A stretch of 24,044 nucleotides of DNA from a virus. The position numbers were made by a program, and so were the translations under genes. Shown here piece after piece: positions 12,123 to 24,044 of this stretch (the stretch's first letter is position 1; every line of letters starts with the position of its first letter). Where the stretch lies: positions 1 through 24,044 of IMG/VR virus record IMGVR_UViG_3300043567_000756. One strand, written 5' to 3'. The notes beneath the pieces are model-generated. The model was given only the letters and a program-made list of their open reading frames with translations. It was not told the DNA's origin and did not search any database.

Positions 12123-14501
12123 ATGGCTGATGTCACAGTAGAATTCGGAGCCAAAGACCTCGGGCTCGCAAAAACCCTCGCCACTGTCCAAGAGGAACTC
12201 GTTAGCCTCCGCACAAAAGTAAAATCCGGCGACCTCTCAATCTCCGACCTCGAGCAGACCATGCGCCGTGTAGGTCAAGTCGAGTCGATGGAAAAACGAA
12301 TCAAAGGCATGGGCCAAGCCGCCGACTCCGCCACCGCCGATTTCAAGCAACTCGACGCCGCGATTGATTCCGTGCAGGCCGAGCAGGCATCCACAGGCTT
12401 CGGCTCTGTGGCCGGGCAGATTGGCAAAATGACCGCATCGCTTACGGCGGCCTACGGCGCTGTCATGGGTTTCCGTGAGGCGTTTTTGTTTGTTGGCGAT
12501 GCCATCAAACTGGCGTCTGATCTCGGGGAGACATCTTCTCAGGTTGGAGTGATTTTTGGAAACACTGCAGATTCCATTCGTTCTTGGGCTGCTACGGCTT
12601 CTACAAGTCTTGGACAGTCTACGCAGCAAGCGATGGAGGCAGCCGCGACTTTTGCGAGTTTTGGAAAAGCAGCCGGATTGAGCGGAAATTCACTTGTTGG
12701 GTTCTCAAAAGACCTCGTTCAGCTAGCGACAGATTTTGCTTCTTTCAAGAATACCTCAGTAGAAGAAGCGATTACGGCGATTGGATCCGCTTTGCGTGGA
12801 GAGTCTGAACCTATTCGGAAATTCAATGTGTTCCTTGACGAGGCAACACTGAAGGCCGAAGCGATGAAGCTAGGCTTGTATGACGGAACAGGGGCTTTGG
12901 ACGCTCAAACAAAGAGTTTAGCTGCATACAATTTAATCATTAAGCAGAGCGGCGACGCCCAAGGAGATTTTGCAAGGACGAGTGATGGTCTGGCGGCTCA
13001 AACAAAAATCCTCAGCGCAGAGTTTACCAATCTCAAAACCGCGCTCGGAGAGGGGCTAATTACCCCAACAAGCACGGTGGTCAGCTCGATCAACGACGGC
13101 TTCATCCCGGCGATGAAAGGCGCGATTCAATACTCGAAAGACCTTTTTGCCGTTCTGAGCACGACCCCGGCCAAAGGCCAATCCGTCGTTTATGATGCCG
13201 TGGCTGAATCTCTCAATGGATTCAACTATTACATGGCGCAGGCGTTTAATAATTTTACGCCATTCGGATATGCACTGACCGCACTTACCAATAAGGGCAA
13301 AGAGGTCGCGCAGACTCAAACCGAAGCCAATGCCGCGATAAATAAAACAAGCGAAGGAGCATCCACGGCCGCCGCCGAGCTAACAAAAACAGGGCTCGCC
13401 GCAGCCACCGCCGCCGGAGAATTCCAAGGCGCAGGCGAAAAAGCCGACACCGCAGGCCAGAGCATGGCCGAATCGTTTTCCCTCGGCGCGGATTTTAAGC
13501 CGCAGATCGAAGGCATCGCCGGGGGGTGGTCCGATGTTGGCGACAAGATCGCAGGCACCAAGCCCCTCCTCGAAGGCAATTTCTCCCTCGCCGACTCGAT
13601 CGCCGGGAAGACCGACGAGCAGGCCCAGAGCATCGGCGGGGTGAATGAGCAGCTCGACACCACCAATAAGCTCAACGAATTGATCGAAGGCAAGGTCACG
13701 GAGACCGACAAAAAACTCGCCGATCAAAAAGCCAAGCAAGCCGCCAGCAACGAAGAAAAACAAAAAGCCCTCGCCCTCGACCTCCAGATCGCCGAAGCCC
13801 TCGCTGGTGGTAACGAAGAGCAAGCCAAAGCACTGCAATACCAGAAAGACTTCAACGGCTACCTCAAGCAAGCCATCGACGCCGGGATGGGCGAACCAGA
13901 AGCCAATAAATTCGCCGCCGCCATGGCCAAAGCCGCAGGCAGCGCCAAAGGCATCAAAGACGACCTCTCCGAATCCGCCAAGCTCTTCAAATCCATCGAA
14001 GAAGCCCGCGCCAAAGACGCCACAGACCGTGGCGGCCGCGACACCAAGCGCGCCCAGGATGCCATCGACCGGGGAGACTTCTCCGCCGCCGAGCGAGCTG
14101 CCGGCCGCATCGCCGCCCGCGAAGAGCGCCAAGGCCGCCAAGCCGGAGAGAAACAAGCCGCCGAGGCCGAGGCCGCCAAACCCTTCTCCCAGCGCATGGC
14201 CGAAGGCACCCAATCCTTCCGCGCTCGCTTTGCCAAATCCGACAAACCCGCCGCCGACCAGCCAGCCGCCGAAGCGCCCAAATCCCTCCGCGACCGAATG
14301 GCCGAAGGCACACAAGCCTTCCGCGACCGCATGGCCGGGAAAGACGCCGTGGACAAACCCGGCCGCACCGGCCAGACCGACACCGCCGCGCAAGGCGGAG
14401 ACAAATCCGGCGGCAAGTCCTCCCTCGATACCCTCGTCGGCGACATCAAGAAACTCCTCGAAAAAATCGAACCCAAGCTCCCCGTCGCCGCCCTCGTTTA
14501 G
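12123..14501 (+). CDS. Tape measure protein
   Basis: A 792-residue protein, the longest in the window, largely helical. Heptad-rich N-terminus (LAKTLATVQEELVSLRTKVKSG...LEQTMRRVGQ), a central tape-measure core (DLGETSSQVGVIFGNTADSIR, AATFASFGKAAGLSG and FARTSDGLAAQTKILSAEF in part), Ala-rich coiled coil, and a charged, low-complexity C-terminus. The C-terminal region has two copies of an R-M-A-E-G-T-Q-x-F-R unit at about residues 696 and 729. The protein fills the tail tube, sets tail length and leaves with the DNA. From its length a tail somewhat over 100 nm is expected if the usual 1.5 angstrom per residue applies. No peptidase motif is seen. Confidence 0.93.
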   Translation: MADVTVEFGAKDLGLAKTLATVQEELVSLRTKVKSGDLSISDLEQTMRRVGQVESMEKRIKGMGQAADSATADFKQLDAAIDSVQAEQASTGFGSVAGQIGKMTASLTAAYGAVMGFREAFLFVGDAIKLASDLGETSSQVGVIFGNTADSIRSWAATASTSLGQSTQQAMEAAATFASFGKAAGLSGNSLVGFSKDLVQLATDFASFKNTSVEEAITAIGSALRGESEPIRKFNVFLDEATLKAEAMKLGLYDGTGALDAQTKSLAAYNLIIKQSGDAQGDFARTSDGLAAQTKILSAEFTNLKTALGEGLITPTSTVVSSINDGFIPAMKGAIQYSKDLFAVLSTTPAKGQSVVYDAVAESLNGFNYYMAQAFNNFTPFGYALTALTNKGKEVAQTQTEANAAINKTSEGASTAAAELTKTGLAAATAAGEFQGAGEKADTAGQSMAESFSLGADFKPQIEGIAGGWSDVGDKIAGTKPLLEGNFSLADSIAGKTDEQAQSIGGVNEQLDTTNKLNELIEGKVTETDKKLADQKAKQAASNEEKQKALALDLQIAEALAGGNEEQAKALQYQKDFNGYLKQAIDAGMGEPEANKFAAAMAKAAGSAKGIKDDLSESAKLFKSIEEARAKDATDRGGRDTKRAQDAIDRGDFSAAERAAGRIAAREERQGRQAGEKQAAEAEAAKPFSQRMAEGTQSFRARFAKSDKPAADQPAAEAPKSLRDRMAEGTQAFRDRMAGKDAVDKPGRTGQTDTAAQGGDKSGGKSSLDTLVGDIKKLLEKIEPKLPVAALV

Positions 14502-14504
14502 AAA

Positions 14505-15143
14505 ATGTCAACCATCTACACATCAGCCGCTGACTGGATTCAGCAGGCCGAAAAGAATGTCGTAAAATATCCCACCGGCCTTGTTAAAACAGAGACCATT
14601 TATATTTGGCCGGGAGGATCGCCAACCACGAACCCTCCCTCCTCCAATGGCCAAGACATCGCCCTTACCACCGACGAGAATGGATTCACCACGGCTGTTG
14701 TTACCGCTTATTCTATTTCCATCCAAAGCGGGAATGGAGGTCCTACATTTTCGCCGGGTATCCTGCGCGAATCCAAGATAATCAAAACCGGCACGGCCAT
14801 CCGCGACACGCGTGAGAAGCGCACGGTCAAAGATGGAGATAATGTTCTGACTCTGATTTTAATAAACCGTGAGACTTTCAGTTTTAGATATTTGGCCCCA
14901 GTTGCCCAAGAGACGAAAGTTTACAGCACGCCAGCCCTGCCACTCTCGGAAGGCACTGGCGACATAACAGTTATCGGCAACCCTCCCTTCTCTGGCGGGA
15001 CCATTACCCAAACATGGGCGCTCAGCTCCTACGAAGTGGTGAAATACGGGGATTATTACGAAACCACGCAATCCGTAGAGCGCGAAGCCTCTATATATCT
15101 ATTTGTGGATCCTTACCCTGGAGAACCCGATGGCCCACAATAA
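14505..15143 (+). CDS. Tail-associated structural protein, unknown family
   Basis: A 212-residue protein, rich in Thr, Ser and Gly, with predicted beta strands: VKTETIYIWPGGSPTTNPPS, TTAVVTAYSISIQSG, NVLTLILINRETFSFRY, and a Tyr-rich end (SSYEVVKYGDYYETTQSVER). It starts three bases after the tape measure stop, where siphophages carry distal tail or tip components, but nothing recognisable as a Dit or Tal protein is visible. The GC content is lower than in the head genes. The protein may lie at the tail tip or be a minor accessory. Confidence 0.55.
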   Translation: MSTIYTSAADWIQQAEKNVVKYPTGLVKTETIYIWPGGSPTTNPPSSNGQDIALTTDENGFTTAVVTAYSISIQSGNGGPTFSPGILRESKIIKTGTAIRDTREKRTVKDGDNVLTLILINRETFSFRYLAPVAQETKVYSTPALPLSEGTGDITVIGNPPFSGGTITQTWALSSYEVVKYGDYYETTQSVEREASIYLFVDPYPGEPDGPQ

Positions 15144-15146
15144 AAG

Positions 15147-15476
15147 ATGAGCTTATCCATCCCAGTCGATTTCACGCAAAAAACCGCAAAAAACAACTCC
15201 GCAGGCGGTTATCCTACGCAAATCAAGGCCGAGGATTTGCAAAAAAATTTCGTCTACTGCGCGCTCGATTGTGAGGGGCTCACCGAAAACACCACCGGTC
15301 CAGGAGGCTTTACAGCTCGCAAATTAAAAATCCTCCCAGGTTCCAAGCAGCACCAAATTCTTATTTGGGACGGTCAACAATACACTCCATTCATGCCACC
15401 TCCATCTGGCAGCATGACTTGGATTCTAGGAGCACAATACGGCGCCCTCGCGTGGATCGCCACGCAGGAATGCTAG
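15147..15476 (+). CDS. Small tail-associated protein, unknown
   Basis: A 109-residue protein. Ends with ILIWDGQQYTPFMPPPSG and SMTWILGAQYGALAWIATQEC, a pattern ('W dG..., vL....G.l.Wi.t..C') that often closes small phage tail or fibre proteins. One cysteine pair (YCALDCEG) is present. It starts three bases after the previous stop and is probably co-translated. No enzymatic motif is seen. Confidence 0.5.
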   Translation: MSLSIPVDFTQKTAKNNSAGGYPTQIKAEDLQKNFVYCALDCEGLTENTTGPGGFTARKLKILPGSKQHQILIWDGQQYTPFMPPPSGSMTWILGAQYGALAWIATQEC

Positions 15477-15480
15477 CACA

Positions 15481-15568
15481 AGTCTTAAGTCTTAAGTTTG
15501 TAAGTTTTAAGACTGACCACCGAGACAATCACGCAAACCGCCCCTTAAAACTTAATTCTTAAAACTTA
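15481..15568. repeat. AT-rich inverted and direct repeats in tail-gene gap
   Basis: The 104-base gap between two tail genes holds TAAGTTTTAAG (15501-15511), its exact reverse complement CTTAAAACTTA at 15544-15554 and again at 15558-15568, and the pair AGTCTTAA (15481-15488) / TTAAGACT (15507-15514). These allow two alternative long hairpins. The stretch is much AT-richer than its surroundings. A regulatory or terminator role is possible; no gene is seen. Confidence 0.6.
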
Positions 15569-15580
15569 AAACTCTCTGCC

Positions 15581-16150
15581 ATGACCCTCGGCCGCACACC
15601 AACCGGAGCCATCAAAATCAAGACCGACGGCGGCCTTCGCGCGGTGAATTGCGCGTGTTGTGGGGGGGGGGGGGATTTTCAACCTTGCCGCGATTGCCCT
15701 CCAGTCCTTGGGGATTGGACATTCTCACTTAGCGGTGATCAAGTCGGAGACCTTACGATATATGAATACCCTACAGGCACACAATATGATCCCCCGCGAA
15801 ATTGCGAAGATTCTTGGGACGCATTTTCTGGGACAGACCCGTCGAACTTCAAATCTTTTAGCGTCAACTTAGTAAGAGCTTCTGGTGGATGGTTTGGAGC
15901 GCCTTCCGGCACTCCGTGCTGTTGGGTTTTAGGTCTCGGAGTTCAAGGCACCTTCGAATATTGCTGCTTTATGGGGTATCCAGATTTATGCTCTGTGGGC
16001 AGCTCTGGTCAGGTAATCATTACCAGCGATAGCCCCGTCGGTTCATACGATTTCACTATTTACGCGCAATGTAAGCCCCCTTGCTATACGGGAGCGCCTG
16101 ACTGCCAAGATGAGCCATTTGAATTTAATTTCACCGTGACCGTCTCATGA
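15581..16150 (+). CDS. Cys-rich tail protein with 13-G tract, phase-variation candidate
   Basis: A 189-residue protein with about 14 cysteines, many paired (NCACC, QPCRDC, TPCCW, EYCCF, QCKPPC), suggesting disulfides or metal binding outside the cell. From residue 40 on it is beta-rich (GDWTFSLSG, GQVIITSDSPVGSYDFTIYAQC, FEFNFTVTVS). A run of 13 G at 15662-15674 encodes four glycines after CACC. One base more or less would shift the frame into early stops, so expression could vary. Its place in the fibre block suggests a surface-exposed or receptor-related role. No family is recognised. It ends in an ATGA overlap. Confidence 0.6.
   Translation: MTLGRTPTGAIKIKTDGGLRAVNCACCGGGGDFQPCRDCPPVLGDWTFSLSGDQVGDLTIYEYPTGTQYDPPRNCEDSWDAFSGTDPSNFKSFSVNLVRASGGWFGAPSGTPCCWVLGLGVQGTFEYCCFMGYPDLCSVGSSGQVIITSDSPVGSYDFTIYAQCKPPCYTGAPDCQDEPFEFNFTVTVS
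15662..15674 (+). repeat. Homopolymer tract, 13 G
   Basis: A single run of 13 guanines within the Cys-rich tail gene, in frame as given (TGT TGT GGG GGG GGG GGG GAT). Of the two alternative frames, one stops near 15731 and the other near 15872. Confidence 0.9.
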
Positions 16151-16470
16151 CATACGAGGATTTCATGAATAAAATGCCGGAAAGTTTGCGCGAGGCGCAT
16201 GCGCTAATGCGCTCGGCTTTTTTAGCAGGAACAAAATTCACAGCCTCCGGCTTCAGCGCGACCCCACCCGAAGCCCTCGCCACCCGCGAAGCCACCTGCC
16301 GCACCTGCCTAGAATGGGACGCCGCCGCGCTGAACGCCACCGGCCGCTGTCGCAAGTGCGGATGCTCCACATGGGCCAAGCTACGCATGGCATCCGAACG
16401 ATGCCCGATCGGCAAGTGGGAAGCCGTCGAATCGAAACCGGAAACCGGAGTGCTAAAACCGCAAATCTAA
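16147..16470 (+). CDS. Small zinc-binding protein (CxxC...CxxCxC)
   Basis: A 107-residue protein whose C-terminal half carries C51, C54, C68, C71, C73 and C86 in the pattern C-R-T-C, then C-R-K-C-G-C, then C-P-I-G-K-W. Small proteins with this 'rCr.CGCs...K.rma.e.CPigkW' layout are common among phage tail and fibre genes, but I know of no established function for them. The N-terminal half (ESLREAHALMRSAFLAGTK) is helical. It starts on an ATGA overlap with the Cys-rich gene. A structural metal site is likely. Confidence 0.65.
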   Translation: MTYEDFMNKMPESLREAHALMRSAFLAGTKFTASGFSATPPEALATREATCRTCLEWDAAALNATGRCRKCGCSTWAKLRMASERCPIGKWEAVESKPETGVLKPQI

Positions 16471-16542: not shown

Positions 16543-16563
16543 CATGCCGCAAGCAGCGGCATG
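16543..16563 (+). promoter_or_regulatory. Hairpin covering the ATG of the large tail fibre
   Basis: CATGCCGC (16543-16550) and GCGGCATG (16556-16563) form a perfect eight-pair stem with a five-base loop. The fibre ATG at 16561-16563 lies at the end of the 3' arm and would be occluded when folded. No Shine-Dalgarno is visible. Confidence 0.5.
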
Positions 16564-18192
16564 AAACTTTTCCTTGATTCAAAAAACCGGCGCTTCGTCA
16601 AGAGCGCCGCGTCGAATGTCGCATTGCAGACGCTCGTCCTCAAACGCCGCGACCAAGTCCCCATCGAAATTATTTTCGTGGAGAACGGCGTGGCCGTCTC
16701 GCCCGTCACAGGCACCACGACCACCGTCGCCCTCAAGACCTCTTTCTCTGACGCCAATTTTCTAGCTCTGGCGGCCCCCGGCCAAACCATCCTCGATCTG
16801 AATACATTGCCGGTCGAGGCCGCATTCTCCTCCGACCCCGCCGCGATTTCCGCCTTTCTCGAAATCCGCTGGACCGCGCCCGCTCAGGCATTGCGAACCG
16901 CGACCCTCCAAGTCGAGATTCAGAACTCCGTCATCCTCGGAGACGAGCAGACCCCCGCCGCCCTCCCAGACGGCAAAGCCACCCAAGCCGAAGCCGAAGC
17001 CGGTCTCTCGAACGCAAAATGGATGACCCCCCTGCGCACCGCGCAGGCCATCGCCGAACTCGCCCCACCTCCCACTTGGGACAGCGTCCTCAACAAGCCT
17101 GCCACCTTCCCTCCCTCGGCCCACACCCACACCGCCAGCCAGATCACCGATTTCGCCTCCGCCGTCGTCGCCGTCTCCCCGCCCGTTGATTGGTCATCGC
17201 TCACCGGCAAGCCAACGACCTTCGCACCTTCCGCCCACACGCACCTCAAGAGCGAGATCACCGGCCTCGATGCCGACCTCGCCGCCCTTGCCACCGAAGA
17301 CACCGCCCTCGGCCAGAGGATCGACTACCTCGCCGCGAATCTGGACCCTGCCGCGCTGGATTCGATTGCCGAAGCAGCCGCCAGCATCGGATCTCTACAG
17401 ACCCAAGTGGACGGCAAAGCCACCGCCGCCCAAGGCGCTCTCGCCGACACCGCCCTCCAGCCCGAGCCAGTAGACTACCAAGGAGCCTACAACAACGGAG
17501 CCGACTACTTCCCCGGCCAAGTCGTCAGCTACAACGGCGAACTCTACCGCCGCGTCGGCGAGCCAAATCCCGGCTATCCACCGCCCGGCAGCTACTGGGC
17601 CACCTTCGATCCATCGGCCTCCCCCGCATTCAAGCTCTGGGTCGATCTCTCAAAAGCCGACACGGTCCACACCCACGCCGCCACCGAGATCACCGGCCTT
17701 TCGAGCTACATCATTTCCAGCGCACCCGGCCTGCAAATCAACACCACCGTCCGCATCGGCGACGGCGTTGCCACCACCTTCCCGATCGACGGCCTCGTCA
17801 GCAGCGATCCCGAGCATGTCCTCGTGGCCTTGAACGGCGTCACGCAAACCCCCACCACCGACTACACGGTCAGCGAAGCCACCGGCACGATCACCTTCGA
17901 CACCGCTCCAAGCGCGGGAATGCAGATCAGTTGCACCGCCTTGGGCCTGCGCACCGTCCAGCCGCCCATCGATCCCACCCTCTACCTCTACGCCTTCGAC
18001 CAAAGCCTCGACGGCCTCACGACCTACAGCGGCCGGTTGCTCAATGCCGACCGCCCCGCCGCGCCAGCACTGCCCGAGACCGCCACAAGCTGGACCATCC
18101 GCCGCAGCACCCTCAACGCCGCAGGCCAAATCCTCGCCACCGCCACCGCCGTCGGCTCGTGGGCTAACCGCACAACGCTCTCCTACACATGA
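16561..18192 (+). CDS. Large tail fibre, His-rich repeats and CBM-like insert
   Basis: A 543-residue modular fibre. The N-terminus (about 1-130) is beta-rich. Three H-T-H units follow: SAHTHTASQITDF near 185, SAHTHLKSEITGL near 223, and VHTHAATEITGL near 370; similar HxH units in phage fibres bind metal and form trimers. Residues about 305-350 (GAYNNGADYFPGQVVSYNGELY then SYWATF) resemble small carbohydrate-binding modules of the chitin-binding type. Residues about 400-462 match a beta domain common in fibres ('GDGvaTTFpiDG ... ALNGVtQtP..DYtV'). The last 68 residues recur in the protein at 19453-19833. It likely binds host surface sugars. Confidence 0.85.
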   Translation: MKLFLDSKNRRFVKSAASNVALQTLVLKRRDQVPIEIIFVENGVAVSPVTGTTTTVALKTSFSDANFLALAAPGQTILDLNTLPVEAAFSSDPAAISAFLEIRWTAPAQALRTATLQVEIQNSVILGDEQTPAALPDGKATQAEAEAGLSNAKWMTPLRTAQAIAELAPPPTWDSVLNKPATFPPSAHTHTASQITDFASAVVAVSPPVDWSSLTGKPTTFAPSAHTHLKSEITGLDADLAALATEDTALGQRIDYLAANLDPAALDSIAEAAASIGSLQTQVDGKATAAQGALADTALQPEPVDYQGAYNNGADYFPGQVVSYNGELYRRVGEPNPGYPPPGSYWATFDPSASPAFKLWVDLSKADTVHTHAATEITGLSSYIISSAPGLQINTTVRIGDGVATTFPIDGLVSSDPEHVLVALNGVTQTPTTDYTVSEATGTITFDTAPSAGMQISCTALGLRTVQPPIDPTLYLYAFDQSLDGLTTYSGRLLNADRPAAPALPETATSWTIRRSTLNAAGQILATATAVGSWANRTTLSYT

Positions 18193-23428: not shown

Positions 23429-23484
23429 GACTTAAAATCCGTTGATCCGAAAGGGTCGTGCGGGTTCAAGTCCCGCCGCCGGCA
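23429..23484 (+). other. attP core: 3' fragment of tRNA-Leu(UAA)
   Basis: From the anticodon loop (CTTAAAA, anticodon TAA) the sequence follows a class II tRNA: anticodon-stem 3' strand TCCGT, variable arm GATCC-GAAA-GGGTC, T arm GCGGG-TTCAAGT-CCCGC, acceptor strand CGCCGGC and discriminator A at 23484. The 5' half is missing and the base left of the loop does not complete the anticodon stem (AGCGA instead of ACGGA), so identity with the host gene probably begins at GACTTAAAA or a base later. On integration this fragment would restore the host tRNA gene. No CCA is encoded. Confidence 0.85.
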
Positions 23485-23520
23485 GAGTGCTTTGTGACGA
23501 TTTGGGCTAGGTTTTAAGCG

Positions 23521-23570
23521 GGTTGGCGGGCGGTTGGCTTCTTGAAACTACAGGCGGCTATTGGCGGCTA
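23521..23570 (+). repeat. Short direct repeats, possible accessory protein sites
   Basis: GGTTGGC occurs at 23521-23527 and 23532-23538 (11 bases apart), and GGCGGCTA at 23553-23560 and 23563-23570 (10 bases apart). Helical spacing between core and right arm suits sites for an excisionase or host bending factor. Confidence 0.35.
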
Positions 23571-23594
23571 CTGGAAGAAAATAGTTGAGATTTC

Positions 23595-23621
23595 GGGCAA
23601 CACGGGCAACAAGTGGGCAAC
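23595..23621 (+). repeat. attP right arm: three GGGCAAC repeats
   Basis: GGGCAAC at 23595-23601, 23604-23610 and 23615-23621, nine and eleven bases apart, ending five bases before the integrase ATG. Integrase binding here could also repress its own gene. Confidence 0.6.
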
Positions 23622-23626
23622 AGACC

Positions 23627-24044
23627 ATGAGCGCCTTTATTGTCAGTCCATATCCGCAGCGACCCGGCACCCCGTGGAAGCTGACGATTCCCGAAAAAAT
23701 ATTTGGCAAAAGGATTCGCCGGTTTTACCGCACCGAGGCGGAGGCTTGGGCGGCGGGGCCGGGTTTGCTGGAGAAGTTGCAGAAGGGGGGGACGGATTCG
23801 CTCTCGGAGGAGCAGGCGAGGGGTATGTCTATGAAATCCGCGGTGCGGGATTACATCGCATCCAAGGTGGGCAGCTCGGAGCGGCACAGGGACAAACTGG
23901 AAAAGATTTGCGGGGAGCTTTTGGATGCTTTCCCTGGCGCGGTGGCGGCGGTCACTCCGATGCAGGCGGCTCGGGTCTTTGGAAAGATTAAGGGCGCGCC
24001 GACGACGCGGGCGGGGTGGCATCGTTACGCCTCCGGGTTTTTTC
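23627..24044 (+). CDS. Tyrosine-recombinase-like integrase, N-terminal part (runs off window)
   Basis: The frame opens at the ATG of MSAFIVSPYPQRPGTPWKL and stays open to the window edge, 139 codons. The start looks like the arm-binding or N-terminal beta part of phage integrases (KLTIPEKIFGKRIRRFYRTEAEA resembles 'g.r....f.T..eA..'). Residues from about 75 on (MKSAVRDYIASKVGSSERHRDKL, then GAVAAVTPMQAARVFGKI, then RAGWHRYASGFF) fit the helical SAM-like core-binding domain. The catalytic domain lies outside. Placement directly after attP is classic. No strong Shine-Dalgarno is seen. Confidence 0.75.
   Translation, partial: MSAFIVSPYPQRPGTPWKLTIPEKIFGKRIRRFYRTEAEAWAAGPGLLEKLQKGGTDSLSEEQARGMSMKSAVRDYIASKVGSSERHRDKLEKICGELLDAFPGAVAAVTPMQAARVFGKIKGAPTTRAGWHRYASGFF

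Follow-up and report, generated by a model that had tools for sequence, protein, structure and literature searches.

A 13-G tract at the border of an exchanged domain cassette in a phage tail-module gene

The locus and its phage

The stretch of DNA analysed here, termed the window, spans an entire IMG/VR virus contig (IMGVR_UViG_3300043567_000756; 24,044 nucleotides) that carries genes for a terminase, a portal protein, a head maturation protease, a tape measure protein, a tail-fibre-like protein and an endolysin/amidase. The phage is of the temperate type and is related to elements in Verrucomicrobiota genomes. A profile search of 388 genomes from one phylum returned one real copy of the gene leader described below (L216), together with one doubtful match containing stops. 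L216 has the same leader and a P-loop-type version of the downstream gene, and its 38.9-kb contig, which may be a binned virus, is syntenic with the window. We infer that it derives from a genome of the phylum Verrucomicrobiota, the phylum being taken from the Kiritimatiellae genome used as the search centre. Towards the right end of the window (23440–24044), a stretch resembling the 3′ end of a tRNA (GGTTCAAGTCCCGCCGCCGGCA) is followed by an open frame resembling the start of an integrase. This frame had no PHROG match and no complete tRNA was found there; the region may represent a temperate-phage attachment site. A tail-region gene at 14505–15143, which appears to be fast-diverging, had no relatives in a protein scan of IMG/VR, and its counterpart in L216 (MPTQVYSSTSG...) occupies the equivalent position.

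The locus of interest comprises two overlapping genes, denoted A and B, and the following features.

15477–15580, + strand: intergenic stretch 5′ of gene A with direct and inverted repeats of the CTTAAAACTTAA type, 95% shared with L146
15581–16150, + strand: gene A, 189 aa; conserved leader and swappable C-terminal domain, predicted to be all-beta
15581–15661, + strand: conserved leader of gene A, MTLGRTPTGAIKIKTDGGLRAVNCACC, common to 82 distinct alleles with unrelated C-terminal domains
15638–15661, + strand: near-invariant 24-nt DNA core, which marks the left border of the swap; its family consensus is CGCGCTGTGAATTGCGCGTGTTGT
15662–15674, + strand: 13-G tract, four Gly codons and the first base of an Asp codon; the only homopolymer in the window longer than 7
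15662–15685, + strand: hypervariable junction from core to domain, made up in the window of the G tract and ATTTTCAACCT, up to the Cys codon at 15686
15662–16248, + strand: swap cassette, the C-terminal part of gene A and the N-terminal part of gene B, from the comparison with L146 and the identity profile
16147–16470, + strand: gene B, 107 aa, overlapping the gene A stop (ATGA)

The repeats at 15477–15580 are common to the window and L146 although the neighbouring genes differ.

The G tract and the gene A reading frame

The initial annotation had reported a run of 13 G, in frame, at 15662–15674 of a Cys-rich gene in the fibre region. Rechecking the sequence confirmed position and length exactly, as well as the Cys-rich character of the gene (ORF 15581–16150, + strand, 189 aa), and the regional label is reasonable, as gene A lies between the tape-measure gene (12123–14501) and the tail-fibre-like gene (16561–18192). 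The tract starts at codon 28 of 189, and the protein reads CACC-GGGG-DFQPCRDC across it. The runner-up homopolymers in the window have 7 bases, and a first-order model predicts 6 × 10⁻⁵ runs of at least 13 G. GGG is a rare Gly codon in the window, making up about 10% of Gly codons.

Length variants of the tract were computed. Runs of 14 or 11 G bring the frame to a stop at 15730–15732, and runs of 12 or 15 G at 15870–15872, in agreement with the stops previously placed near 15731 and 15872; with 10 or 16 G, the gene A frame stays open. Gain or loss of a single G thus truncates the protein, and the products after a 1- or 2-nt change are 49–50 or 96–97 aa long. Such slippage could also disturb gene B through the ATGA overlap at 16147–16150. 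Long mono-G tracts slip often in bacteria, as established for Helicobacter, Neisseria and Campylobacter, and gene A resembles a contingency gene in that its tract is pure and slippable (13 G) and a change of one base ends the frame early.

A conserved leader in front of exchanged domains

A protein-guided scan of IMG/VR yielded 54 loci, and further DNA scans extended the collection to 82 distinct alleles. Many of the 54 loci align to gene A residues 1–30 only, because the leader MxLGRT..AIKIKTDGGLRAVNCACC is shared and the rest of the protein is unrelated. Between cassettes of different families, identity is 93–99% over the last 24 nt of the leader, falls to 45% over the next six positions and from +6 onwards is 25%, as for random sequence. 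Position 0 of this profile is 15662, which is both the first G of the tract and the first base 3′ of the core. Synonymous sites in the core are nearly fixed among loci retrieved by protein patterns, which leave such sites free; loci from the DNA scan whose query contained the core are left out of this evidence. Codons that this genome seldom uses (GCT, GCG, TGT and GTG) occur in the core, and GGG follows directly after it. A degenerate core pattern gave at least 76 matches in genome contigs, with the leader motif in none among the matches listed; this pattern is too loose. The Cys-rich leader is probably a virion or partner anchor.

Gene A had no sequence match in Pfam, PHROG, NCBIfam or the PDB, and none among cultured-phage records. 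Its structure model contains an all-beta domain (residues 48–188; pLDDT 69) and a disordered linker (residues 19–31 under 50). A Foldseek search with this model gave no match at E ≤ 0.001, and no relation to a known receptor-binding protein was found by sequence or fold, which is weak evidence given the moderate model confidence. Gene A has the layout of a modular tail adhesin, with a conserved N-terminus, exchanged unrelated C-terminal domains and a location in the tail module. A second copy of the core, as in an invertible or reservoir system, was looked for in the window and not found.

The right border of the exchange was located by comparison with L146, which is 95% identical to the window over 15453–15662, has no match up to 16248 and is homologous again from 16249, so that the border lies inside gene B (16147–16470). 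Gene B was readable in 72 cassettes, and in these the C-terminal parts of gene A fall into 15 groups (BLAST E ≤ 1e-5), 11 of which have two or more members. These sequences indicate exchange, behind the core, of no fewer than 11 unrelated families of C-terminal domain together with the first part of gene B.

Gene B (family PHROG 13558, of unknown function) combines a variable N-terminus with a conserved Cys-rich, Zn-ribbon-like C-terminal part, TPPEALATREATCRACPEWD..CRKCGC..CP.GKW (general form CRxC..CRKCGC..CP.GKW). As a rule, each A-domain family has one type of gene B N-terminus, and types differ between families. For example, MTYEDFLxKMPE.LRE.H accompanies the FNFTVTVS family of the window, MNKEKLIAHFGLEKG occurs with CNCSNRPTGKYKF, and MFKRLMKSLRRFAEAGMPS with CSPFCGFTQIQV; in the large family L031–L197, the types are more mixed. 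Gene B might act as a partner or chaperone.

In two groups, gene B has a 200-aa N-terminal domain. That of L042, L047, L049 and L053 contains a P-loop, GFPRSGTS, and has a weak Pfam match to Sulfotransfer_3 (E 0.0014, below the curated cut-off). This sulfotransferase-like domain, present also in L216, is fused to the Cys-rich Zn-ribbon-like domain and exchanged jointly with one gene A domain family. The other 200-aa domain (L054, L199, L201, L205 and L207, and the related L030, L169 and L210) has the motif FHFFPQSR and no Pfam or NCBIfam match. The structure model of a 261-aa gene B variant is unusable (pLDDT 39).

Variation at the junction

The junction was defined as the stretch from the end of the core to the first Cys or alignable base of the domain, and spans 0–24 nt. 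In allele pairs with cores 92–100% and domains 86–99% identical, the junctions are only 33–67% identical or differ in length. L167 and L168, with domains 97% identical, have GAGTCGTCG and GCTTCACCG; L053 and L216 have GGGGGG and TGG; and L201 and L205 have GAGTCGCCTTTTCCGCCA and GTTCCTGTTCCGCCT. Moreover, junctions and domains can be paired crosswise: GTGACG is common to L146 and L191, and GTGAAT to L151 and L188, whereas the domains pair as L146/L188 (96%) and L151/L191 (93%). This crossing implies either that recombination occurs also between junction and domain or that the junction changes repeatedly, and, judged from the alleles compared, either process may be the source of junction diversity. 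Linker length changes by whole residues, with 8 in the window and 7 in most relatives. The most frequent first junction codon is GGG (35 of the 82 alleles), although the AVNCACCG search pattern favours Gly at that position.

G tracts among relatives

Junction G-runs of 0, 1, 2, 3, 4, 5, 6, 8, 11 and 13 were found. Six distinct alleles have at least 8 G. Runs of at least 11 G occur in the window (13), L058 (13) and L013/L014 (11), which represent three clades of one domain family whose nearest members without the tract have GGGCCAATCGAC, GGGCCAACTGAC or GGTGGGGGGG; runs of 8 G occur in other domain families (L221/L224, L225 and L226). The reading frame is intact in each of the six alleles, a result with probability (1/3)⁶ = 0.0014 if the phases were equally common; the scans for G-runs of at least 7 or at least 9 were independent of frame. 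L013 and L014, which come from different metagenomes and differ by 1 SNP in 5.5 kb, both have 11 G. Across divergent alleles, the lengths are thus 8, 11 and 13, all ON, with equal length in the sole near-identical pair. Reading all recurrences as independent gains had to be softened, as the 13 G of both the window and L058 are followed by ATTTYCAACCTT; recombination may have copied the tract, leaving two origins rather than three.

Replacement of the tract by mixed Gly codons in homologues had been named beforehand as an argument against switching. This argument holds in part: most homologues have mixed or non-Gly codons at this site (GPIDFQP, GSQDFQP, EPQDFQP and ASGPFIP), so that the tract is not a conserved protein feature.

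Other long G/C tracts were noted in related phages, at L034:16327–16338 (12), L033:19150–19159 (10) and L154:8–20 (13). In both L034 and L033, the tract falls in the 3′ end of a small opposite-strand gene, where slippage would alter only the C-terminus (the L034 product ends ...DSDPDMMGGGG*). The L154 contig starts 7 nt before its 13-G run.

Discussion

We consider it fairly probable that the tract is a recurrent slippage expansion, with its frame held by selection, in a linker that tolerates indels and borders a swap cassette. This short, hypervariable linker would connect the invariant leader of a tail-module gene with its swappable C-terminal domain. Phages exchange the C-terminal part of gene A together with the N-terminal part of gene B between the 24-nt core and the conserved part of gene B. 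Codons just 3′ of the core diverge fast, and long G-runs have arisen there more than once, every time in frame. Since the first junction codon is most often GGG to begin with, slippage of DNA polymerase on GGGGGG seeds would extend the run. Changes of 3 nt would add one Gly to the linker and be tolerated; changes of 1 or 2 nt would truncate gene A and be selected against, so that in-frame alleles make up the consensus. Any 13-G population probably contains a low-frequency OFF class. A tolerant linker alone does not account for pure runs of 11–13 G persisting unbroken by synonymous GGC or GGA changes, and the tract's repeated appearance at the same codon might reflect selection for switching.

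The initial annotation had proposed phase variation. What stood of this proposal is a long, pure, slippable tract near the start of a tail-module gene, with at least 11 G in three clades; the alleles that it would lead one to expect, OFF or of mixed length, were not seen. True phase variation, in which the tract would be kept as an ON/OFF switch of a receptor-related tail protein and would affect gene B through translational coupling, is in our judgement possible but rather unlikely. Thirteen pure G is a length at which slippage is frequent in bacteria, a tract at codon 28 would give clean truncation, gene A sits in the tail module, and the tract has been gained recurrently in separate clades. 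In addition, L005, 93% identical to the window, begins 18 nt past the tract position, as assemblies may at length-variable tracts; this fits an assembly break and proves nothing. Set against these points, none of the six alleles with at least 8 G is OFF, the gene A frame is unbroken in every allele that was read through, L013 and L014 have equal lengths in two samples, and the tract is absent from most homologues. Apart from the missing OFF alleles, a phase switch would agree with all of the observations. A broader version of this idea, a dedicated diversification locus that receives cassettes on the 24-nt core through disproportionately variable junctions and also acts as an ON/OFF switch where the G tract is long, is doubtful.

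The remaining alternatives concern whether the DNA has been read correctly and how it is expressed. Homopolymer lengths are error-prone, and contigs end near the tract site (L005) and at another 13-G run (L154), which suggests that assemblers struggle there. However, frame-preserving lengths were obtained here and in independent data sets (13 G in L058; 11 G in L013 and L014, from two metagenomes), and errors would ignore frame, which makes it very unlikely that the true run is shorter or otherwise different in length. Polymerase slippage is possible at long homopolymers, and programmed transcriptional or ribosomal slippage could yield both a full-length and a truncated product, in a fixed ratio, from unchanged DNA, the 49–50- or 96–97-aa products then consisting of the leader and a short tail. 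We regard this explanation as highly improbable, given that most homologues lack the tract and that the out-of-frame extensions bear no sign of conservation.

The cassette is of more interest than the tract. Whether or not the tract switches, the locus is a compact route for tail-module domain exchange in phages of uncultured freshwater-type bacteria: its elements are a coding border of 24 nt, the hypervariable junction behind it and a partner-gene N-terminus that travels with the domain. Because many junctions of one domain family can be compared, the formation of mosaic borders inside genes becomes testable. If the tract does switch, it would constitute a slippage-based on/off system of a phage tail-module gene; our literature search found phage phase variation by inversion and none by a homopolymer tract.

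Comparison with known systems

Read-level length variation has been described for poly-G contingency tracts (PMC2823697). The present locus resembles the poly-G contingency loci of Helicobacter, Neisseria and Campylobacter, which undergo translational phase variation, in that a long, uninterrupted run of G lies close to the gene's 5′ end and a one-base change truncates the product. It differs from them in that the gene belongs to a phage, every observed long tract is in frame, no length variants were seen, and the tract lies at a recombination border and is missing from most homologues.

Phages are known to vary tail proteins by invertible tail-fibre segments (Mu Gin and P1 Cin; cited in PMC6286511) and by diversity-generating retroelements, and gene A is likewise a varied tail protein. 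The window differs from invertible segments in lacking an inverted spare domain or a second core copy, and gene A differs from both systems in varying by whole-domain exchange and junction change between phages rather than within one genome.

The 'boundary sequences' of phage modules are thought to guide homologous recombination (PMC3029335). Gene A likewise has short conserved DNA at a mosaic border; unlike those sequences, the border here falls within a gene, has a hypervariable junction behind it and is used by 11 or more unrelated domain families.

Modular phage receptor-binding proteins combine a conserved N-terminal anchor with an exchangeable C-terminal domain (PMC12692247). The gene A anchor is, by comparison, very short (27–30 aa) and Cys-rich, and its last 24 nt are conserved as DNA; the junction is hypervariable, and the downstream gene keeps its C-terminus but exchanges its N-terminus in register. 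Gene A, whose product is at most a candidate receptor-binding protein, shares with these proteins a conserved leader, unrelated C-terminal domains, a place in the tail module and swapping between phages.
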